Of a DNA stretch of 64,000 nt, positions 39,394 to 50,131 are shown piece by piece (positions within the stretch are counted from its first letter, which is position 1; every line of letters starts with the position of its first letter). A program made the position numbers and the translations under genes. The stretch is from Bacteroidota bacterium (GTDB taxonomy: Bacteria; Bacteroidota; Bacteroidia; Bacteroidales; Lentimicrobiaceae), in contig WSXU01000009.1 of assembly GCA_009773455.1 (NCBI GenBank), positions 62,001 to 126,000 of the forward strand, given 5' to 3'. The notes beneath the pieces are model-generated. The model worked only from the letters and a program-made list of their open reading frames with translations. It searched no databases and was not told the DNA's origin.

Positions 39394-40914
39394 ATGAATA
39401 TACTCAGTTTATTTGTCCTTATTCCGGTTTTAACCTGTGTTGGCATCGTGTTCACTAAGAACATGAAACAGACCAGGCTTGTTTCGGCAGTCGGTATGAG
39501 CATTCAGCTTATCCTGTCAGGCATTCTGGTCTATCTCTACCTTACAGAACGCCAGGCGGGCAATATGGCCGAAATGCTCTTCACTTATGATGCGCTCTGG
39601 TTTCCGACACTGAATATCCACTACACCGTTGGTGTTGACGGCATTTCGGTGGCCATGATTGCACTGACCGGAATCGTGGTCTTTGCCGGAATATTCGCAT
39701 CCTGGAAAATGGAATTCCTTTCCAGGGAGTTTTTCATCTCTCTGATTCTTCTTGCTACCGGTGTTTTCGGTTTCTTCATTTCGCTCGACCTCTTCACAAT
39801 GTTTCTCTTTTATGAGATTGCCGTAATCCCGATGTACCTGCTGATCGGTATCTGGGGATCCGGACCGAAGGAGTATTCAGCCATGAAACTTACCCTCATG
39901 CTGATGGGCGGATCTGCCCTGCTTATGGTGGGACTGCTTGGAATTTACTTTTACTCTGCCCCTGCCGGCGGACAACTCACCTGGAACCTTCTGGAGATTT
40001 CGAAGATCAACATCCCCATTGAAATGCAGCGCTTTCTATTCCCCTTTACCTTCATTGGTTTTGGTATCCTTGGCGCGCTTTTCCCGTTCCACACCTGGTC
40101 GCCCGACGGTCATGCCTCGGCCCCTACAGCCGTTTCAATGCTGCATGCCGGTGTGCTGATGAAACTCGGAGGTTACGGCGCTTTCCGCGTCGCCATCTTC
40201 CTGATGCCCGAAGCTGCCCAGGAGCAGGCATGGATTTTCCTGATCCTTACCTCCATCAGTGTCGTTTACGGAGCCTTTGGCGCCATTTGGCAGAAAGACC
40301 TTAAATACATCAATGCCTATTCCTCGGTAAGTCATTGCGGCCTTGTATTGTTTGCCGTACTGATGATGAACCAGACTGCCTTCAACGGCGCCATCATCCA
40401 GATGATCTCCCATGGTCTGATGACAGCCCTCTTCTTTGCCCTGATCGGCATGATCTACGGAAGGACCCATACCCGGATGATCAACGAAATGGGTGGTCTG
40501 ATGAAGGTAATGCCCTTCCTTGGTGTTGTTTACGTTATTGCCGGTCTGGCTTCACTGGGCCTTCCGGGATTAAGCGGTTTCGTTGCTGAAATGACCATCT
40601 TCTTTGGCGCCTACCAACACACCGATACTTTCCACCGCATTCTGACCATCATGGCTACCACCAGCATCGTGGTAACTGCTGTTTACATCCTGCGCGTGGT
40701 GGGTATTCTGCTGCTCGGTCCGATCAAAAACGATCATTTCCTGCATCTTGATGATGCCAAATGGTACGAAAGGCTTTCAACCATTACCCTGGTGCTCGCC
40801 ATTGCTGCCATCGGTATCGCCCCGTTGTGGCTTTCCGATATGATCAACGTTAGCCTCGCACCCATCGTTAACAAGATTACAATGGCAGGCTTTGAATTTA
40901 CAAGCCTGTTTTAA
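39394..40914 (+). CDS. nuoM: Complex I subunit M, proton-pumping antiporter-like
   Basis: The 506-residue product has the NuoM signatures: FYEIAVIPMYLLIGIWG with the key glutamate, FIGFGILGALFPFHTWSPDGHASAPTAVSMLHAGVLMKLGGYG, KDLKYINAYSSVSHCGLVLF and the SHGLMTALFFALIGMIYGRTHTR segment. About fourteen membrane helices are expected. It starts 16 bases behind nuoL. Confidence 0.96.
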   Translation: MNILSLFVLIPVLTCVGIVFTKNMKQTRLVSAVGMSIQLILSGILVYLYLTERQAGNMAEMLFTYDALWFPTLNIHYTVGVDGISVAMIALTGIVVFAGIFASWKMEFLSREFFISLILLATGVFGFFISLDLFTMFLFYEIAVIPMYLLIGIWGSGPKEYSAMKLTLMLMGGSALLMVGLLGIYFYSAPAGGQLTWNLLEISKINIPIEMQRFLFPFTFIGFGILGALFPFHTWSPDGHASAPTAVSMLHAGVLMKLGGYGAFRVAIFLMPEAAQEQAWIFLILTSISVVYGAFGAIWQKDLKYINAYSSVSHCGLVLFAVLMMNQTAFNGAIIQMISHGLMTALFFALIGMIYGRTHTRMINEMGGLMKVMPFLGVVYVIAGLASLGLPGLSGFVAEMTIFFGAYQHTDTFHRILTIMATTSIVVTAVYILRVVGILLLGPIKNDHFLHLDDAKWYERLSTITLVLAIAAIGIAPLWLSDMINVSLAPIVNKITMAGFEFTSLF

Positions 40915-40986
40915 ATGCATATGCTGAAACCTCATGGAACTCATCCGGAAAGTTTCACCAAATAAAAAACTTTTAGATTCGGTAGT

Positions 40987-42411
40987 ATGACAATAAACGA
41001 CTTCTTACTCATGCGGCATGAATTGTCGCTGGTGGCAATAGCACTCATTCTGCTGGTGACAGACCTTATGCTGAAACCGTCGCAAAAACCGCGCATCATA
41101 CCGGTAGCCGTTGTCCTGTTCAGCATTCATACCATCCTTGGTTTCCTCCCTGCATGCGAAGGCATTCTCTTTGGCGGCATGTTCAGGGCGACCGCACTGA
41201 TCGGAATGATGAAAAACGTGCTGAACGTGGGTGTGCTGATCATCCTGCTCCAGTCGTACACCTGGATCATGAAAGAAGAGAACCGCGACAAGATGAGTGA
41301 GTATTTCATCCTGATGTTCTCAACCCTGACCGGGATGTACTTCATGATCTCATCCGGTGATTTCCTGATGTTTTACCTCGGGCTGGAAACAGCCACGATC
41401 CCGATGGCAGCATTGGCAGCCTATACCCACCACCAGACCAAATCAGCAGAAGCCGGTGTTAAACTGATTCTGTCTTCAGCACTTTCATCAGGCATCCTGC
41501 TTTTCGGCCTGTCGCTCATTTACGGCTCAACAGGAAGCATCTATTTCAGTGATGTCGCTCAGTTATACAGCAATGCCCCGATGCAGGTGCTGGCCTTCCT
41601 GTTTTTCTTTTCAGGGATGGCTTTCAAGATTTCCCTGGTGCCTTTCCACCTGTGGACAGCAGATGTTTACGAAGGATCGCCCATCAACGTCACCTCTTAC
41701 TTTTCAGTCATCTCTAAAGGGGCAGCATCCTTTATCCTGGTACTTATCCTTTATAAGGTATTCTTCCAGCTTGTGTATGTCTGGCAGGACCTCCTTTACA
41801 TCATTTCAGTGCTCACCATGGTGGTAGGTAACCTTTTTGCGCTGAGGCAGAAAAATATGAAAAGGTTCCTTGCCTTCTCATCCATTGCCCAGGCGGGTTT
41901 CATCCTGCTCGGGATGATTGCCGGAAGCCAGATGGGTATGACATCGGTCATCTATTTTGTACTGGTCTATATCTTTTCGAATCTCGGCGCCTTTGGTGTT
42001 GTTTCTGCCATTGAAGCCTCGACCGGCAAAATCAATATGGGCGATTACGATGGCCTCTACCACACCAACCCGAAACTCAGTCTGCTGATGATGCTGTCCA
42101 TGTTTTCACTGGCAGGCATTCCACCGGTAGCCGGATTCTTCGGCAAGTTTTTCCTGTTTACTTCAGCTGCTTCGGCCGGCTATTACTGGCTGGTTTTTAT
42201 CGCGGTTCTCAATGCAACCATTTCACTTTACTACTATCTGATGGTGGTAAAGGCTATGTTTATCAACAAGACAGATACCCCGATTGCAAAATTCCGCAGC
42301 GACAATATGACCCGTGCAGGCCTTATCCTCAGCGGACTGGGCATCCTTGTGGTTGGATTCTGGGCCCAGGTATATGAGTTTATCTTTAACCTAAGCGTCG
42401 GACTTTTTTAA
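40987..42411 (+). CDS. nuoN: Complex I subunit N, proton-pumping antiporter-like
   Basis: The 474-residue product closes the operon. It shows FLMFYLGLETATIPMAALAAY with the key glutamate, GMAFKISLVPFHLWTADVYEGSPINVTSYFSVISKGAASF, KNMKRFLAFSSIAQAGFILLGMIAG and FSLAGIPPVAGFFGKFFLF. It is preceded by a 72-base gap, somewhat larger than others in the operon. No nuoE, nuoF or nuoG lies nearby in either direction. Confidence 0.95.
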   Translation: MTINDFLLMRHELSLVAIALILLVTDLMLKPSQKPRIIPVAVVLFSIHTILGFLPACEGILFGGMFRATALIGMMKNVLNVGVLIILLQSYTWIMKEENRDKMSEYFILMFSTLTGMYFMISSGDFLMFYLGLETATIPMAALAAYTHHQTKSAEAGVKLILSSALSSGILLFGLSLIYGSTGSIYFSDVAQLYSNAPMQVLAFLFFFSGMAFKISLVPFHLWTADVYEGSPINVTSYFSVISKGAASFILVLILYKVFFQLVYVWQDLLYIISVLTMVVGNLFALRQKNMKRFLAFSSIAQAGFILLGMIAGSQMGMTSVIYFVLVYIFSNLGAFGVVSAIEASTGKINMGDYDGLYHTNPKLSLLMMLSMFSLAGIPPVAGFFGKFFLFTSAASAGYYWLVFIAVLNATISLYYYLMVVKAMFINKTDTPIAKFRSDNMTRAGLILSGLGILVVGFWAQVYEFIFNLSVGLF

Positions 42412-43079: not shown

Positions 43080-43488
43080 TTATACCTAAGATTCTGTGCA
43101 ATTAAAAACAGTTTTGGCAAACTATGAACAAAATGGAACCAGAACCATCTTATTGGCGCATGTTATATCCCTCCTTTTATTCGGAAAGCAAGACTTCTAA
43201 AACGTGTTCCAACTATAAATCATAACAACATTTCATGCAAAAAGGCTATATCATACCCTGACTTATTGATGGATCCTTTATAGATCAGTCAATTGTAACA
43301 GTCTTTTTTAAGTTTCAATTCAATCTTATTTGCATAATTCCAGTTAAAGAAATCGGAACCGGACTTCCGTCTGACAGGGTTAATTGCTTAAAAATAACAG
43401 GAGTGAAGCAAAGCTGATTCTTCTCAGCTTTTAGTTCAGCAGCCAGGGCTGGATGAAATGCAGATGACTTCAGTACCTTCAAATAAAT
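43080..43488. other. Gene-free region before the catabolic operon
   Basis: About 400 AT-rich bases hold no convincing frame. A short hairpin, AAAGCTGA / TCAGCTTT (43410-43431) followed by T-residues, could end stray transcription before the operon promoter. Confidence 0.45.
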
Positions 43489-43540
43489 TTTGAAGTCAGA
43501 TTAAATTATATTTACTTTGCGAAGTGAAATTTACTATTTC
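43489..43540 (+). promoter_or_regulatory. Putative promoter and operator of the XRE-led operon
   Basis: TTTG (43489-43492) and TTACTTTG (43512-43519) are 19 bases apart, close to the Bacteroidota pattern. Just downstream, GTGAAAT-TTACT-ATTTC (43524-43540) is an inverted repeat at the expected transcription start, and is a plausible site for the XRE-cupin regulator encoded next. Confidence 0.55.
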
Positions 43541-43559: not shown

Positions 43560-44111
43560 ATGCAAAGACTTGGCGAACGCATCAGAAACAGAAGAGAAAG
43601 TCTTAATATTCAGATCAATAATTTAGCCGTTGCGATTGGTGTGACGCCAAGTCTGATATCGCAGATAGAAAGGGCTAAGGCATTTCCATCCATCATTACG
43701 CTTAAAAAGATTGCAGATGCCCTACAGACTACAGTCGGTAACCTGATAGGGGAAAATGAAACCTACTCCCGGAATCCTGTGGTGAAATTCTCTGAAAAGA
43801 GGATTGTTCAGACCAATAACCAGGGTGCTACACTGTACCTTCTTTCCAACCACGATCAACAAAAACTCATGGAGCCATACCTGTTTGTTTTTCCTCCTGA
43901 GTCCGGCTCCGATAATCTCAGTAGCCTGATGCCGGGGCAGAGTTTCTATTATGTTTTAAAAGGAATTGTTCGAATTGAAACTGAATTTCAGGAATTCAAA
44001 CTGACAGATGGCGATGGTTTTTACTTTAATTCAGGTCACAAACACACCATTTTTAATTCAGGGCCGAAAGAGGCAATGTTATTATGGATTTCAACAAATC
44101 CGATTTTATAA
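43560..44111 (+). CDS. XRE-family transcription regulator with C-terminal cupin sensor
   Basis: The 183-residue product has an HTH_3 domain (residues ~5-60: LGERIRNRRESLNIQINNLAVAIGVTPSLISQIERAKAFPSIITLKKIADAL) and a cupin_2 domain (~105-180: ESGSDNLSSLMPGQSFYYVLKGIVRIE, GDGFYFNSGHKHTIFNSG). This architecture is typical of regulators that sense an amino acid or related small molecule through the cupin barrel and control an adjacent catabolic operon. It is the first gene of a seven-gene run on one strand, 20 bases before the next start. An inverted repeat in its promoter could be its own operator. Confidence 0.9.
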   Translation: MQRLGERIRNRRESLNIQINNLAVAIGVTPSLISQIERAKAFPSIITLKKIADALQTTVGNLIGENETYSRNPVVKFSEKRIVQTNNQGATLYLLSNHDQQKLMEPYLFVFPPESGSDNLSSLMPGQSFYYVLKGIVRIETEFQEFKLTDGDGFYFNSGHKHTIFNSGPKEAMLLWISTNPIL

Positions 44112-44131
44112 CCAAAAAAAAATCAGCAAAT

Positions 44132-44611
44132 ATGAAAAATAAAGTAGTTATCATTATGGGTTCAAAGGCCGACCTTGAACAGGCTGAAAAAATTGCATCA
44201 ACCCTGAAACGGTTTAAAACCGAAACGATCCTCAGAATTGCTTCGGCACACAAAGTACCTTTAAAATGCTACAACCTCATTAAAGAGTACGAGAAAGAAA
44301 ATGTAGTCTTTGTTACAATTGCAGGCATGAGTAATGCTCTCAGTGGTTTTACCGATGCCCAGACACATTGCCCGGTAATCGCCTGCCCGCCTTACAGCGA
44401 CAAATTTGGTGGGGCAGATCTGTTTTCAAGTATACGTATGCCTTCCGGCGTGGCTCCTTTAATGGTTTTAAGCCCTGAAAATGCTGCATTGGCTGCTGCA
44501 AAGATTATCGGCTTAAGCAACCCTGAGGTTCAGGAACAGGTGATTGCATTTCAAAACAACAAAAGAGAAGAGCTTGAAGCAGCCGACAATGAATTACAAA
44601 AACATCGTTAA
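44132..44611 (+). CDS. purE: Class II PurE-like protein (AIR carboxylase family)
   Basis: I place the start at the ATG at 44132, since the frame open from 44084 overlaps the previous gene and adds a non-family prefix. The ~159-residue product matches class II PurE (the CO2-using type of treponemes and animal PAICS): MGSKADLEQAEKIAS, IASAHKVPLKCYNLIKEYE, TIAGMSNALSGFTDA, IACPPYSDKFGGADLFSSIRMPSGVAPLMVLSPENAALAAAKI. The SAH histidine is kept. Two places differ from what I recall in class II enzymes: GS.SD reads GSKAD, and AGRSN reads AGMSN. It may be the true purine enzyme or a relative used by the surrounding catabolic operon. Confidence 0.78.
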   Translation: MKNKVVIIMGSKADLEQAEKIASTLKRFKTETILRIASAHKVPLKCYNLIKEYEKENVVFVTIAGMSNALSGFTDAQTHCPVIACPPYSDKFGGADLFSSIRMPSGVAPLMVLSPENAALAAAKIIGLSNPEVQEQVIAFQNNKREELEAADNELQKHR

Positions 44612-44622
44612 TAAGAACAACT

Positions 44623-46182
44623 ATGACAACTCAGAATTTTGAGCTTAACAGTATGCTCACCCGTTACCACTGTTCGGATGAATCGGTTGAAATCATTAAA
44701 AATGAAAATCTGCTGCCTCTGGGTCTGCTGAAAAGGCTACATCACTGTTATCCGCAACATTCCGGCTTTTTCAGGACAGATACTGCATATTTTACCGACA
44801 AGACCTACTATTCAGGATTGAGCGGTTTCAGAGAAATCATCGAAAAACTCAGGAAAAACGGAATCGAAATCGGGCACATTAAGGAACGGGAGTTTTTTAT
44901 CGAAGTTTATAGGTTTTTGGCTACAAAACACACACTGAATAGCATTAACTGGAATAATTACGAGAACGATTCAATGTATAACCTGATTTTTCCTCAGCCA
45001 GGAATGATAGCTGCAGATGAAGTGAAAAAATACATTGACGCAGACACAGATCAACTCAGGCAAAGTGTGGTGGATGATTATCAAAAAAAAACCAATCCAC
45101 ATGATGGAAAGCAAAAACTCAATAAACCCTGGTTCATAAACGATGAAGGGCAGTTGGAAATTTTACAGGGGTGCCAGCACAAATACCCCCCTGTGAAACT
45201 AATATTTGACAAAACCACACAGAATTGTTTTGCATTTTGTACCTATTGTTTCCGCCACGCCCAGGTCAGAGGTGATGAAGATATGTTTGTGCAGGTTGAA
45301 GTCAGTCAGGTTCACAACTATCTGAGAAAGCACAAAGAAATCAGTGATATACTGATCACCGGAGGTGATGGGGGTTTCATTACTTACGAGCGTCTTGCAG
45401 AATATGTTGAACCATTGATGGAAGACCCTGAACTTATGCACATAAAAACGGTCCGGTTTGGTTCCAGGGCTATTACTTTTCATCCCGGATTACTCCTGAC
45501 AAATAAGTTCAGCTCAATACTTGAACTGTGGAAGAAGGTAATTGACAGCGGAATTCAGGTGGTATGGGTGGCTCATTTATCTACGCCACGTGATATACTG
45601 AATCCCGGAACAATTGCAGCCATCCGCAGACTTAAAAGCTATGGTATTACCATCAAAAGCCAGAGCCCGATAATGAATCATATCAGTCTTTTTACTGATG
45701 AAAAAGGGAATATTGATATTGATAAATCAGCACAGAACTGGATTGATCTCGGAAATATCCTGGCGATGGTTGGTGTCGGATTTCATTCAATGTACTGTGC
45801 AAGGCCGACAGGTGAACATCATTATTTTACCGCACCCCTTGCTGATATCAGCAAGATATTCAATAAAATATATAAAGAATTGGCGTCAATAAACCGTCCT
45901 TCAAGGTATATAACCATGACATCATCCTCCGGAAAAATTTCACTTCTGGGCACTGCTGAAATCAATGGCGAAAAGGTTTTTGCCTTAAAGTTCAATGAGG
46001 GACGTAATATGGACTGGATGGACAGGGTATATTTTGCAAAATATGATGAAGTGGAAAACACCATCGAAAAGCTAAAACCCTATGGAGCCGACAAACATTT
46101 CTACGAGGATGAATTGATTGAAATTGAGACCAGACTCGAGGAAGCATTGCAAAAGGAATTAATTAAATCAGAACAGCAATGA
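44623..46182 (+). CDS. Lysine-2,3-aminomutase-like radical SAM/PLP enzyme with altered substrate pocket
   Basis: KamA-type enzymes move an alpha-amino group to the beta carbon using S-adenosylmethionine, a 4Fe-4S cluster and PLP. In this 519-residue protein the cluster ligands are Cys202, Cys206 and Cys209 (CFAFCTYCFRH), the carboxylate-binding Arg is Arg211 (equivalent to Arg134 of the clostridial enzyme), and the PLP lysine is Lys438 in SSSGK. The two aspartates that hold the lysine side-chain amine (Asp293 and Asp330 in Clostridium) are replaced by Ala393 and Thr431 by my hand alignment, so lysine is an unlikely substrate. A ~150-residue N-terminal helical region precedes the barrel. Its stop overlaps the CoA-transferase start (ATGA). 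Confidence 0.85.
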   Translation: MTTQNFELNSMLTRYHCSDESVEIIKNENLLPLGLLKRLHHCYPQHSGFFRTDTAYFTDKTYYSGLSGFREIIEKLRKNGIEIGHIKEREFFIEVYRFLATKHTLNSINWNNYENDSMYNLIFPQPGMIAADEVKKYIDADTDQLRQSVVDDYQKKTNPHDGKQKLNKPWFINDEGQLEILQGCQHKYPPVKLIFDKTTQNCFAFCTYCFRHAQVRGDEDMFVQVEVSQVHNYLRKHKEISDILITGGDGGFITYERLAEYVEPLMEDPELMHIKTVRFGSRAITFHPGLLLTNKFSSILELWKKVIDSGIQVVWVAHLSTPRDILNPGTIAAIRRLKSYGITIKSQSPIMNHISLFTDEKGNIDIDKSAQNWIDLGNILAMVGVGFHSMYCARPTGEHHYFTAPLADISKIFNKIYKELASINRPSRYITMTSSSGKISLLGTAEINGEKVFALKFNEGRNMDWMDRVYFAKYDEVENTIEKLKPYGADKHFYEDELIEIETRLEEALQKELIKSEQQ

Positions 46183-46895
46183 TAAATAAAATCGCTCATT
46201 CGGCCGGAGAAGCTGTTGCTGAAATCTTTGACGGGGCTACCATTCTGATCAGTGGTTTCGGTGAAGCCGGAAGCCCGATCGAACTTATTCATGCTTTGGT
46301 GGATCAAGGTACCGGAAACCTTACGATCGTAAGCAACAATGCCGGAAGTGGCCATGTTGGCCTCGCTGCGCTTATTGAAAACAGGCAGGTAAAAAAAATC
46401 ATCTGTTCTTTTCCAAGAACCGCCATTTCAGTTGTTTTTCCTGAAATGTACAGGAAAGGGGAAATAGAACTGGAATTGGTGCCACAAGGCACACTCGCCG
46501 AAAGAATCAGGGCTGCAGGTGCCGGCATTCCTGCATTTTATACGCCAACTTCAGTAAATACAACACTTGCGAAAGGCAAGGAGACAAAAGTTTTCAACGG
46601 CAAGACATACGTGCTTGAACACGCGCTGAGTGCTGATTTCTCTCTGGTCAAATGCCACGCTGCAGACAAATACGGCAATCTGACCTATAACAAAACTGCA
46701 AGAAATTTCGGCCCTGTCATGTGCATGGCTGCTAAAACCACCATTGTCCAGGCAAAGAAAATTCTTGAATTGGGACAGATTGATCCTGAGTGTGTCATTA
46801 CACCGGGCATCTTTGTTAAAAAGGTTGTTGAAATATCTGATCCTGCCGACGAATCATTGTTGGTTGCAGAAAACAGGAGGTACCCATGGATTTAA
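46179..46895 (+). CDS. 3-oxoacid CoA-transferase subunit A, PcaI-like
   Basis: The 238-residue alpha subunit has the CoA-binding GFGEAGSPIELIHAL segment near residue 25, LTIVSNNAGSGHVGLAALIE, SFPRTA, VPQGTLAERIRAAGAGIPAFYTPT, and NLTYNKTARNFGPVMCMAAKTTIVQ. This closely follows subunit A of 3-oxoadipate:succinyl-CoA transferase (PcaI) in my recollection, more than acetoacetate-type AtoD. It works with the next gene product and overlaps it by ten bases. In this operon it probably activates a beta-keto acid for thiolysis. Confidence 0.88.
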   Translation: MINKIAHSAGEAVAEIFDGATILISGFGEAGSPIELIHALVDQGTGNLTIVSNNAGSGHVGLAALIENRQVKKIICSFPRTAISVVFPEMYRKGEIELELVPQGTLAERIRAAGAGIPAFYTPTSVNTTLAKGKETKVFNGKTYVLEHALSADFSLVKCHAADKYGNLTYNKTARNFGPVMCMAAKTTIVQAKKILELGQIDPECVITPGIFVKKVVEISDPADESLLVAENRRYPWI

Positions 46896-47548
46896 GAGAG
46901 AACATTGGATGGCCCGTCAGTGAGATGGCCCGTAAAGTAGCTATGGATATAAACGATGGGGCCTATGTTAATCTGGGCATAGGCATTCCGGAAATGGTTG
47001 CCGGTTATATCCCCGAAGGTCGTGAAGTTATTTACCATACTGAAAACGGCTTGCTGGGTATGGGCAAGGTTGCTGAAAAAGGAACCGAAGATTTTGAGCT
47101 TGTCAATGCCGGGAAAAAATATGTAACAGCAATTCCCGGTGCAGCCTTTTTTCATCATGCCGACAGTTTTGCCATGATCCGCGGCGGACATATTGACATT
47201 TGTGTGCTTGGAGCTTATCAGGTTTCGCAGGAAGGGGATCTGGCCAACTGGTCAACAGGTGATCCCAATGATGTGCCAGCCGTTGGCGGAGCCATGGATC
47301 TGGTAGCAGGAGTTAAGACCATTTATGTCATTACCCAGCACAGTACGAAAAGCGGTGAATCAAAAATTGTAAAAGAGTGCACCTATCCGTTGACCGGCAA
47401 AAAAGTAGTAAGCAGAATTTATACGAATCTGGCGGTCATTGATGTTACAGAAAACGGACTTTATGTCAGGGAACTTGCTCCGGACTTAACATTTGAATAT
47501 CTGCAGAAGCATACAGATGCCGCTTTATCACAATACAATGCGAAATAA
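46886..47548 (+). CDS. 3-oxoacid CoA-transferase subunit B, PcaJ-like
   Basis: The 220-residue beta subunit carries the catalytic glutamate Glu53 in YHTENGLLGMG, followed by INAGKKYVTAIPGAAFFHHADSFAMIRGGHIDICVLGAYQVSQEGDLANW and GAMDLVAGVKTIYVITQH. The pattern is that of PcaJ/ScoB; details such as SFAMIRGGHIDICVLG and SRIYTNLAVIDVT fit PcaJ well. It forms a heterodimer with the preceding protein. The following aminotransferase starts 15 bases downstream. Confidence 0.9.
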   Translation: MDLRENIGWPVSEMARKVAMDINDGAYVNLGIGIPEMVAGYIPEGREVIYHTENGLLGMGKVAEKGTEDFELVNAGKKYVTAIPGAAFFHHADSFAMIRGGHIDICVLGAYQVSQEGDLANWSTGDPNDVPAVGGAMDLVAGVKTIYVITQHSTKSGESKIVKECTYPLTGKKVVSRIYTNLAVIDVTENGLYVRELAPDLTFEYLQKHTDAALSQYNAK

Positions 47549-47563
47549 CAGGCCGTTTAACCT

Positions 47564-48922
47564 ATGGAAAGCATGAACACAACTGAAATAAATCATCCGG
47601 AAACAAACAGCGGGGAATTGTATAATAAGGCCTGCGGATTTCTGCCCGGAGGCATCAGCCGGAATACTGTCTTCCGACTGCCACACCCATACTACTTAAA
47701 AAGCGCCTCAGGCTGTTACCTGAAAGATATCGACGGGAACGAGTACATTGATTTTGCCAATAACATGGCAGCTCTTATCCATGGACATGCCCACCCGGCA
47801 ATAGAGGCTGCTGTGATTGAACAGCTGAAAAGAGGCACAGCATGTACTTTTGCAACAGAAGCAGAATTTAAACTGGCTGAATTGCTCTGCAACAGGGTTG
47901 AAGGATTTGAGAAAATCCGTTTTGTAAATTCCGGAACAGAAGCAGTGATGGCCATGATTAAAGCGGCAAGGGCTTTTACCGGTCGTCCTAAAATGGCAAA
48001 AGCGGAAGGCGCCTATCATGGTACGTATGATTTTGCCGAAGTCAGTCAGACATCAAACCCATCAAACTGGGGCAGCATCGACAGCCCGCAAAGCAATCCC
48101 CAGGTTTTTGGCACACCCGCCGGAGTGACAGACAATGTTGTCGTGTTTCCATTTAACGATATAGAGAAAACCATTGCTATCCTGGATAAACATGCCGGGC
48201 AGATCGCCTGTGTTGTTGTTGATCCGATCCCACACCGTGTCGGACTGGTTGAAGCAACGCCTGAATTTATTGAAGCCATTTATCAGTGGACCAGAAAGAA
48301 CAATGCATTAATGGTATTTGATGAAGTTGTTACATTCCGGACCAATTATGGCGGAGCCCAGCAAAACTATTCCTGCAAACCGGATCTGACGGCTTTGGGG
48401 AAAATCATCGGAGGAGGTTTCCCTGTGGGGGCTGTCACAGGAAGGTCTGACATTATGAAAATAATGGACCCGAGAGAACCAAAAGTACTTTTTCCGTTAT
48501 CGGGCACATTTTCTGCAAACCCCATGACCATGACTGCCGGAAGGGTTGCTATGGAATTATTTGATAATGAAACTGTTGTGAAATTAAATCACCTTACTCA
48601 AAAGGCAATAGAACAGATTAAAGAGGCCGTAAGAGTTGCCGATGTTCCCGTTTCAATTACCGGAGCAGGATCCATGTTTCGTATTCATCTGAGACAAAAT
48701 CCTCCGGCAACCTACAGGGAAGCCTATCAGAGCAAAGAAATCACCAGGTTGATTGACCAACTGCTTGACTATTTGCTGATCAATGAAAAGATAATCATGG
48801 TGAACACCTGCTCCTGCATGTTTTCAACAGCAATTACTATGAAAGAAGTTGACCGGCTTACACAGGGGCTGCTGAACGGATTTAAAATCATTAAGCCAGA
48901 ACTCGAAAAAATGTTAAAGTAA
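47564..48922 (+). CDS. Class III aminotransferase of the glutamate-semialdehyde-aminomutase type
   Basis: The 452-residue fold-type-I PLP enzyme has LPGGISRNTVFRLPHPYYLKSASGCYLKDIDGNEYIDF at the start, VNSGTEAVMAMIKAARAFTGRPK near residue 125, the PLP-contacting FDEVVTFRTNYGGAQ, and the Schiff-base lysine Lys280 in LTALGKIIGGGFPVGAV. It belongs with HemL-like and beta-amino-acid transaminases rather than ornithine aminotransferases. No heme genes surround it. Next to an aminomutase and a keto-acid CoA-transferase, transamination of a beta-amino acid is the most likely role. The start could also be at 47573. Confidence 0.85.
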   Translation: MESMNTTEINHPETNSGELYNKACGFLPGGISRNTVFRLPHPYYLKSASGCYLKDIDGNEYIDFANNMAALIHGHAHPAIEAAVIEQLKRGTACTFATEAEFKLAELLCNRVEGFEKIRFVNSGTEAVMAMIKAARAFTGRPKMAKAEGAYHGTYDFAEVSQTSNPSNWGSIDSPQSNPQVFGTPAGVTDNVVVFPFNDIEKTIAILDKHAGQIACVVVDPIPHRVGLVEATPEFIEAIYQWTRKNNALMVFDEVVTFRTNYGGAQQNYSCKPDLTALGKIIGGGFPVGAVTGRSDIMKIMDPREPKVLFPLSGTFSANPMTMTAGRVAMELFDNETVVKLNHLTQKAIEQIKEAVRVADVPVSITGAGSMFRIHLRQNPPATYREAYQSKEITRLIDQLLDYLLINEKIIMVNTCSCMFSTAITMKEVDRLTQGLLNGFKIIKPELEKMLK

Positions 48923-48928
48923 TTAGCC

Positions 48929-50131
48929 ATGAACGAAGTTTATATTTGTGATGCCATAAGGACACCCATCGGGAAATACGGTGGTGCACTTTCATCCGTC
49001 AGAACAGACGATCTTGCAGCGATCCCATTAAAAGCTTTAATGCAGAGAAATCCGGGTATTGATTGGCTTGAAATTGACGATGTTATTATAGGATGCGCCA
49101 ATCAGGCCGGAGAAGACAACAGAAATGTTGCCCGTATGGCGCTTTTGCTGGCAGGTTATTCTGAGACCATTTCAGGCGCAACGGTCAACCGTTTGTGCGG
49201 TTCAGGAATGGATGCCATTGGCATAGCAGCCAGGGCCATCAGGTCAGGTGAAGCAAACCTGATCATTGCCGGTGGTGTTGAAAGCATGTCGAGGGCTCCC
49301 TTTGTTATGGCAAAGGCAACAGAAGCTTTCTCCAGGTCAGCTGAGATATTTGATACAACCATCGGATGGCGGTTTATTAACAAAGAGTTTAAGAAAAGAT
49401 TCGGCACCGATTCAATGATTGAAACTGCTGAAAACATTGCATCTCAGTATAAAATAAGCCGGGAGGACCAGGATATTTTCTCGCAGGCCAGCCAGGAGAA
49501 AACTGCCAGTGCACAGCAGAAGGGATATTTTTCTGACGAAATCATACCCGTTGAAGTCCCTGTGAAAAAAGGGGAAAACAGTATCTTCAGCAAAGATGAA
49601 CATCCGAAATTAACATCACTTGAGAAGTTATCTGCCCTGAAGCCTGTTGTGAATGAAAATGGCTCCGTTACCGCGGGCAACTCTTCAGGCATTAATGATG
49701 GATCCGCTGCTTTGATTATTGCTTCAGCTGATGCCGTTAAAAAATTTAATCTTCAACCCAAAGTCAGAATCCTTGGAATCCAGACAGCCGGGGTACTACC
49801 GCGCATCATGGGTATGGGGCCTGTTCCGGCTACAAGCCTATTGCTTCGCCGGTTGGGTATAGCGCTCAACGATATCGACATTATTGAACTGAATGAAGCT
49901 TTTGCCGCTCAATCGTTGGGCTGTATGCGTGAACTGGGTCTGGAGATCAATGACCCGCGTGTAAACCCGCAGGGAGGAGCCATTGCCATTGGTCACCCGC
50001 TGGGCATGTCCGGTGCAAGAATCGTAATGACGGCCTTTTATCAGTTACAACGTTCATCCGCCCGGAAAGCACTTTGTACGATGTGTATCGGCGTTGGCCA
50101 GGGCATTTCAATCGTTCTGGAAAAGGTTTGA
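48929..50131 (+). CDS. Thiolase, PcaF (3-oxoadipyl-CoA thiolase)-like
   Basis: The 400-residue enzyme cleaves a 3-oxoacyl-CoA with CoA. Catalytic residues are Cys90 ([10 protein letters not shown]), His356 ([10 protein letters not shown]) and Cys386 ([11 protein letters not shown]). The N-terminus [56 protein letters not shown] and [10 protein letters not shown] resemble PcaF/PaaJ rather than short-chain acetoacetyl-CoA thiolase. With the PcaIJ-like transferase this favours 3-oxoadipyl-CoA as substrate, giving acetyl-CoA and succinyl-CoA. It ends the operon; a terminator follows 114 bases later. Confidence 0.9.

Follow-up and report, generated by a model that had tools for sequence, protein, structure and literature searches.

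Several described systems share parts with the locus reported here. In the established saccharopine pathway, LKR, saccharopine dehydrogenase (SDH) and L-piperidine-6-carboxylate (P6C, or aminoadipate-semialdehyde) dehydrogenase together convert lysine to 2-aminoadipate. Glutamate 2,3-aminomutase (EAM) carries out a radical S-adenosylmethionine (SAM)/pyridoxal phosphate (PLP) 1,2-amino shift on a dicarboxylic amino acid, and the old beta-lysine pathway of Pseudomonas includes transamination and thiolysis of acetyl-beta-lysine. As excerpts of two accounts have it, glutaryl-CoA is the end point of nearly all annotated routes for lysine (PMC5653290), and the HglS branch leads from 2-oxoadipate to 2-hydroxyglutarate with loss of CO2 (PMC7286885). 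Our subject is a run of seven genes at 43560-50131, + strand, of a 64,000-nt stretch (the window, to which coordinates refer) of contig WSXU01000009.1, from the 4.81 Mb draft genome of a Bacteroidota bacterium (GCA_009773455.1; genome G000, contig C34). To judge from its sequence, this operon quite probably specifies the lower half of a pathway for lysine degradation, from a branch point at 2-aminoadipate onwards; and on balance we favour the view that its radical SAM aminomutase gives access to a route on which lysine is converted by way of 3-aminoadipate, without loss of carbon, to succinyl-CoA and acetyl-CoA, encoded in one operon and found in several phyla.

The features of the locus are as follows.

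43500..43535, + strand: predicted operator/promoter element, ATTAAAT-N3-ATTTA..TTTG-N8-ATTTA.T, 5' of the XRE-cupin gene (aligned upstream regions, matrix score)
43560..44111, + strand: XRE-cupin (PuuR-like) transcription regulator of 183 aa, found in some of the loci only (HTH_3 and Cupin_2)
about 44132..44611, + strand: PurE-like protein, an extra copy outside the conserved set (AIRC; best PDB match 3rg8)
44623..46182, + strand: predicted 2-aminoadipate 2,3-aminomutase, a remote KamA-family radical SAM/PLP enzyme, 519 aa (residue pattern aligned to KamA)
46179..46895, + strand: 3-oxoacid CoA-transferase subunit A, predicted succinyl-CoA:3-oxoadipate CoA-transferase (TIGR02429)
46886..47548, + strand: 3-oxoacid CoA-transferase subunit B (TIGR02428)
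47564..48922, + strand: class III aminotransferase; predicted substrate 3-aminoadipate, free or as the CoA ester (nearest structure 6k8h)
48929..50131, + strand: 3-oxoadipyl-CoA thiolase, PcaF-type (TIGR02430)

Successive genes overlap by up to 10 bases or lie up to about 20 bases apart (computed, like the protein queries, with the PurE-like gene starting at 44129, a codon upstream of its internal ATG, 44132), and coordinates and strand confirm the original prediction of seven same-strand genes with short gaps or overlaps. NCBIfam and Pfam scans of the seven proteins agree with the identities given there: HTH plus cupin, AIRC/PurE, KamA-family radical SAM, CoA-transferase A and B, Aminotran_3 and 3-oxoadipyl-CoA thiolase.

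From the gene order, linkage, family membership and residue patterns observed, we infer a substrate, a direction, an order of the middle steps and a mode of regulation. Lysine would pass by way of saccharopine to 2-aminoadipate through LKR, SDH and P6C dehydrogenase, gene kinds that lie elsewhere in G000 and, in a Prolixibacteraceae-like clade, within the operon or next to it; the true start of the pathway is probably lysine, earlier than first proposed. The KamA-type radical SAM/PLP enzyme would then move the amino group from C2 to C3, turning 2-aminoadipate into 3-aminoadipate; the class III aminotransferase would deaminate free 3-aminoadipate, or its CoA ester, to 3-oxoadipate or the corresponding CoA ester; the CoA-transferase, of the SCOT/PcaIJ type, would bring CoA from succinyl-CoA to give 3-oxoadipyl-CoA; and the PcaF-type thiolase would split this into succinyl-CoA and acetyl-CoA. 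In loci that have it, the XRE-cupin protein would regulate the operon from the promoter element.

A scan of genome contigs yielded 70 related loci, with best-segment identities of at least 56% in 68 of them, 37% in L069 and 23% in L070. As traced by tblastn of the window genes, aminomutase, CoA-transferase A and B, aminotransferase and thiolase follow one another in the same order on one strand in 48 of the 51 loci where the aminomutase is matched and the sequence extends 4.2 kb or more beyond it; the first four are kept in order in L051, L054 and L064, and in L051 a thiolase lies next door on the opposite strand. The order is not due to chance, since 48 loci keep the five genes on one strand, and the notion that it might be unique to this contig is refuted. 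The seven-gene operon first described is thus present in the window, but the conserved unit is these five genes, the PurE-like and XRE-cupin genes being mostly missing elsewhere. Record titles assign the loci to Bacteroidota, Balneolales, Rhodothermaceae, Ignavibacteria, Chlorobi, Acidobacteria, Eisenbacteria, Actinobacteria and one Desulfuromonadales metagenome-assembled genome (MAG), a phylum spread that rests on those titles, most loci being MAGs of which single assignments can be wrong; carriers titled Draconibacterium, Maribellus and Lutimonas are not MAGs. Across a broad set of Bacteroidota genomes few carry the aminomutase (E <1e-100 in 2 of 296, one of them G000); it reaches the same threshold in 10 of 60 relatives, G000 included.

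Genes of the kind that lead from lysine to 2-aminoadipate adjoin the operon in a subset of loci. Sequence reaches 6.2 kb or more past the aminomutase in 45 loci, and in 14 of these neighbour clustering and tblastn show a P6C dehydrogenase gene as the next one after the thiolase. These 14 aldehyde dehydrogenases are 69-73% identical to the P6C dehydrogenase of G000, and the cut-off (730) of the L-piperidine-6-carboxylate dehydrogenase model NF050084 is exceeded by the proteins of L007 (800.4 bits), L060 (805.4), L058 (802.8) and G000 (783). The gene that comes next belongs to the SDH family in 13 of the 14 and is LKR-like, with AlaDh_PNT domains, in L060; eleven loci have another SDH-family gene upstream, divergent. 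A second arrangement, with P6C dehydrogenase upstream on the same strand, makes L058 the fifteenth locus with linkage. G000 itself has LKR-like and SDH-family genes side by side (L087:6538-9243) and its P6C dehydrogenase (L086:8191-9759) on contigs other than that of the operon. Pfam domains identify the LKR-like proteins of G000 and L060 (AlaDh_PNT) and the SDH-family proteins of G000 and L007 (Sacchrp_dh_NADP and Sacchrp_dh_C), and the exact reaction of these genes is presumed from family. In four more aminomutase carriers (G129, G362, G366 and G376) the P6C dehydrogenase match adjoins the LKR match, the dehydrogenase being a partial match in G366 and the LKR in G362. This linkage of the operon to P6C dehydrogenase and SDH-family or LKR-like genes supports 2-aminoadipate as the substrate of the aminomutase.

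It bears on direction as well. Most steps are reversible in principle, and run backwards they would build 2-aminoadipate and then lysine from succinyl-CoA and acetyl-CoA; a protein of G000 scores 220.5 bits with the lysA model, against a cut-off of 297.9, though lysA is its best family. The linked aldehyde dehydrogenase, on the other hand, points to oxidation, and thiolytic cleavage is the favoured direction of thiolases in general; we regard biosynthesis as the least probable of the alternatives considered here.

The last steps of the degradative route can be assigned by enzyme family. Subunit A of the CoA-transferase scores 357.7 bits with TIGR02429 (PcaI/ScoA; cut-off 128.5), subunit B 301.2 bits with TIGR02428 (PcaJ/ScoB; cut-off 243.55) and the thiolase 661.8 bits with TIGR02430 (PcaF; cut-off 597), so that the likeness to PcaIJ and PcaF noted in the original prediction holds against all three cut-offs. 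The nearest solved structures to subunit A are succinyl-CoA:3-ketoacid CoA-transferases, and the nearest PDB chains to the thiolase, 6pca-6pcd, are named beta-ketoadipyl-CoA thiolase. All 28 thiolases scanned, from 47 rows (alignment rows L053, L067 and L069 having been dropped), match both curated 3-oxoadipyl-CoA thiolase models at E <=1e-180. The thiolase is thus predicted to cleave 3-oxoadipyl-CoA, and the transferase families together with the PcaF-type thiolases argue for a six-carbon 3-oxo dicarboxylic acid as the intermediate rather than a product of glutamate or lysine. Glutamate had been put forward as an alternative substrate: converted to beta-glutamate, 3-oxoglutarate and 3-oxoglutaryl-CoA, it would yield acetyl-CoA and malonyl-CoA by the same chemistry, and a dicarboxylic substrate of this kind would also suit the aminomutase residues described below (R394 and the lost KamA aspartates). 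This alternative is disfavoured by the linkage of the operon to lysine-to-aminoadipate genes, by the 3-oxoadipyl-CoA type of the 28 thiolases scanned and by the score of the aminomutase with the glutamate 2,3-aminomutase model TIGR04368 (49.8 bits; cut-off 650), and we consider it very unlikely.

The aminomutase is a remote member of its family. Six KamA-type models match it, each far below its cut-off; the best is TIGR00238 (75.9 bits; cut-off 199.2), which reaches E 6.3e-26 at best among 34 members of the family, and no Pfam model matches at E 0.001. Comparison of the aminomutase family by hhalign with a profile of four KamA-like proteins gave a probability of 98.6 at 23% identity. The first protein of the four matches PDB 2a5h at 672 bits, and KamA numbering follows that structure. 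Enzymes of the KamA family have a CxxxCxxC cluster motif, an arginine for the substrate carboxylate and a PLP lysine. C202, C206 and C209 of the window enzyme align with C125, C129 and C132 of KamA, R211 with R134, and K438 with K337; the first four are kept in 64 of 64 rows and K438 in 63 of 63 (rows L059, L062, L066 and L067 were omitted as short, L069 for stops, as in an earlier alignment, and L058 as two pieces). With cluster cysteines, arginine and PLP lysine all in register, the enzyme classes with the KamA family in the broad sense.

The substrate pocket is where it departs from KamA. KamA Asp293 and Asp330, which Lepore in 2005 reportedly found to hold the epsilon-amine of lysine, align with A393 (64 of 64 rows) and with position 431 (T in 59 and S in 4 of 63 rows), and R394, beside A393, is invariant (64 of 64); the glutamate enzyme has Lys and Asn at these two KamA positions. 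As aligned, both lysine-binding aspartates are replaced, and the neutral A/T pair with its adjacent invariant arginine fits a substrate that ends in a carboxylate. These residues bear on another alternative, in which lysine itself is the substrate and passes by way of beta-lysine and 6-amino-3-oxohexanoate, perhaps N-acetylated, to a CoA ester and so to 4-aminobutyryl-CoA and acetyl-CoA. Membership of the KamA family and the resemblance to the Pseudomonas beta-lysine pathway speak for such a scheme; the lost aspartates, a score of 56.2 bits with the lysine 2,3-aminomutase model TIGR03820 (cut-off 525.4) and the PcaF-type thiolase speak against it, as does the failure to find an acetyltransferase family in 20 proteins scanned, 18 of them operon neighbours (other neighbours were not scanned). 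We give it a slimmer chance even than the glutamate route. The route favoured from the outset, from 2-aminoadipate to 3-oxoadipate, is the one to which linked genes, thiolase type and aspartate replacement all point.

Other observations on this enzyme concern its relatives. The window aminomutase is 86% identical to that of L001 and only 60-63% identical to those of the same-genus genomes G018, G012, G016 and G005, and in a tree of 62 loci, the window and 3 outgroup rows (L055, L058, L059, L062, L066 and L067, short or in two pieces, were omitted, as were L069 and L070) it falls in another group than L040 and L065. This closeness to L001 rather than to same-genus copies, together with the tree grouping, suggests that the operon has moved between lineages. 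In the L058 MAG the gene matches as two separate pieces (L058:5090-6765). A second KamA-like family, of about 445 aa and 31-32% identical to the window enzyme, is common in related genomes and unlinked to the five-gene operon; its members at L089:7626-8960, L090:7966-9300 (- strand) and L091:7365-8708 have the same neighbours in all three. A further KamA-type gene in three genomes (L094:1818-3176, - strand; L095:2599-3867; L097:2949-4232) adjoins two genes that resemble each other (234 to 332 aa) and that we take to be ATP-grasp-like in look.

The aminotransferase scores 341 bits with the HemL model TIGR00713, against a cut-off of 527.3, and its nearest solved structure is 6k8h (370 bits), the omega-transaminase of Sphaerobacter thermophilus. 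According to portions of one article, that enzyme serves to make beta-amino acids, and its R36 is the residue proposed to bind the substrate carboxylate (PMC10589169). R36 aligns with R33 of the window aminotransferase, invariant in 52 of 52 rows; position 38, a serine in 6k8h, is R in 42 rows and H in 10. (Rows were omitted for an internal stop, L005 and L033, or for shortness, L018, L028, L031 and L056, as were loci that lacked exactly one + strand aminotransferase match.) By nearest structure and carboxylate arginine the protein would be a StoTA-like beta-amino-acid transaminase.

These features also bear on the order of the middle steps. In a variant of the same pathway CoA would be loaded before transamination, 3-aminoadipate going to 3-aminoadipyl-CoA and then to 3-oxoadipyl-CoA, with the HemL-like aminotransferase acting on the CoA ester. 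The cell would thereby avoid a free, unstable beta-keto acid, such acids being unstable in water according to parts of one source (PMC10589169); Kat, a HemL-like enzyme of Cloacamonas and Bacteroidetes lysine fermenters, is described in sections of another as acting exclusively on CoA esters (PMC3149608); and the CoA-transferase genes precede the aminotransferase gene. Set against this are the nearest structure, which is a transaminase of free beta-amino acids with the proposed carboxylate arginine kept, and the 3-oxoacid families to which the CoA-transferase belongs. CoA loading first is, in our estimate, doubtful but a serious contender; the pathway from 2-aminoadipate would otherwise be unchanged. 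No class III aminotransferase, sought as Kat, was found in the lysine-fermentation stretches fetched.

Degradation by way of 2-aminoadipate has nonetheless to be set against several observations that weigh on the other side. The 14 loci with P6C dehydrogenase after the thiolase fall in a 17-row group of the aminomutase tree (support 94/84), the other three rows of which (L006, L015, L031) are contigs that end before the site in question; because they form one clade, their linkage is probably one event, or perhaps two once L058 is included. None of the four LKR/SDH proteins scanned matched an NCBIfam model at 1e-20, so that these calls rest on Pfam domains. A393 and R394 are common to the second KamA-like family, and alone they do not therefore name the substrate. 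The matrix scan described below did not find the promoter element at the LKR-SDH or P6C dehydrogenase genes of G000; the best sites scored 12.2 bits in L086 (position 4663, before another gene) and 3.4 in L087. Lastly, P6C dehydrogenase exceeds its cut-off in 33 of 50 aminomutase genomes, compared with 106 of 198 from Bacteroidota with a completeness of 90% or more; 17 of the 50 have none above the cut-off, two of these showing contig-end pieces, and LKR, matched in 37 of the 50, has no match in 13.

Such genome-wide co-occurrence is weaker evidence than linkage, and many of the genomes sampled are fragmented MAGs. The 50 genomes represent 50 of the 70 loci: L010, L013, L014, L020, L021, L024, L026, L028, L030, L042, L043, L044, L047, L055, L056, L059, L061, L066, L067 and L070 were left out, seven of which (L010, L013, L014, L020, L021, L024 and L047) carry P6C dehydrogenase in the locus itself. 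It exceeds its cut-off also in 1 of 14 control genomes. Among relatives (61 genomes, being 60 relatives and G129, kin and so not independent), LKR matches in 11 of the 11 that have the aminomutase at E <1e-100 against 27 of 50 others, and P6C dehydrogenase matches in 10 of 11 against 19 of 50. The sets overlap, in that G012, G018 and G049 are apparently the genomes behind L065, L040 and L032.

Upstream of the five conserved genes the loci differ. The XRE-cupin gene is found in six (L008, L009, L048, L049, L053 and L062) of the 63 loci whose sequence extends 700 bases or more upstream of the aminomutase, at 51-53% identity to that of the window, and aligned upstream regions of the window and these six share an element 5' of the gene. 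A matrix built from L008, L009, L048 and L049, with the window excluded and L053 and L062 omitted for a spacer one base longer, gives 32.4 bits to window 43500-43535 and 7.4 to the runner-up within the 64 kb; in loci that lack the XRE gene the best score near the aminomutase start, with the full matrix, is 9.9. Going by their titles, L049, L053 and L062 are flavobacterial and related, and the seven sites are not fully independent. The element is probably the regulator's own operator and the promoter of the operon. An inverted repeat, TGACTTCA/TGAAGTCA, at 43465-43498 was set aside, as it is not seen in front of the six other XRE genes.

The PurE-like gene occurs in one of these 63 loci, L002 (L002:9416-9907, 84% identity), and was rejected as a pathway step on that ground; there it follows a HydF-like and two radical SAM genes and directly precedes the aminomutase. 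Its product, which we take to be class II by its nearest structure, 3rg8, scores 144.1 bits with the PurE model TIGR01162 (cut-off 149.6), and since G000 has a second PurE-like gene, on C133 and 26% identical, the operon's is an extra copy. At the other end, a gene of neighbour cluster 19 follows the thiolase in seven loci (L041, L042, L043, L044, L061 and L069, at about 15.5-16.6 kb, and L045, at 8.5-9.2 kb), and its member in L043 matches Pfam Pro_CA, carbonic anhydrase. Window 39394-42411, upstream of the intergenic region that precedes the operon, holds genes that by eye resemble NADH dehydrogenase subunits M and N.

The searches made of open-licence papers listed no description of a 3-aminoadipate route or an aminoadipate aminomutase, in keeping with the original prediction, to which no described pathway with this gene set was known, and novelty is to that extent provisional. 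Matches for aminoadipate terms were off-topic (a meteorite study and a reference title on lysine 6-aminotransferase), and passages of PMC8706239 name neither a 2-aminoadipate aminomutase nor a lysine route through 3-aminoadipate. What is likely new is the predicted 2-aminoadipate 2,3-aminomutase activity and the carbon-conserving branch that it would open; the components are known kinds of enzyme. If the prediction is right, lysine can be degraded with all six carbons kept, bypassing glutaryl-CoA, with no need of an oxygenase or 2-oxoadipate dehydrogenase, which might explain oxygen-free use of lysine by many uncultured Bacteroidota and others; and the labels "lysine 2,3-aminomutase" and "HemL" that such genes likely attract would have to be corrected. 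The Draconibacterium, Maribellus and Lutimonas carriers make the pathway directly testable.

Of the known systems, clostridial lysine fermentation (KamA, KamDE, Kdd, Kce, Kal or Kat) likewise begins with a KamA-family aminomutase, and its Kat variant, in passages of one report, has a HemL-like aminotransferase (PMC3149608). The operon differs in having no 5,6-aminomutase, Kdd or Kce, in its remote aminomutase without the lysine-binding aspartates and in its PcaF-type thiolase; the absence of kamDE, kdd, kce and kal remarked on originally holds for the operon, the rest of the genome not having been searched for them. Compared with EAM, to the model of which it scores so far below the cut-off, the window enzyme would act on a substrate one carbon longer and belongs to an apparent degradation operon. 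With the lower part of the beta-ketoadipate pathway (PcaIJ, PcaF) it shares the CoA-transferase and the 3-oxoadipyl-CoA thiolase, but there 3-oxoadipate comes from an aromatic ring and here it would come from an amino acid. With saccharopine lysine degradation, finally, it would have the whole upper half in common, LKR, SDH and P6C dehydrogenase down to 2-aminoadipate; from that point the described routes proceed via 2-oxoadipate, whereas the route predicted here would move the amino group to C3 and deliver the six carbons as succinyl-CoA and acetyl-CoA.

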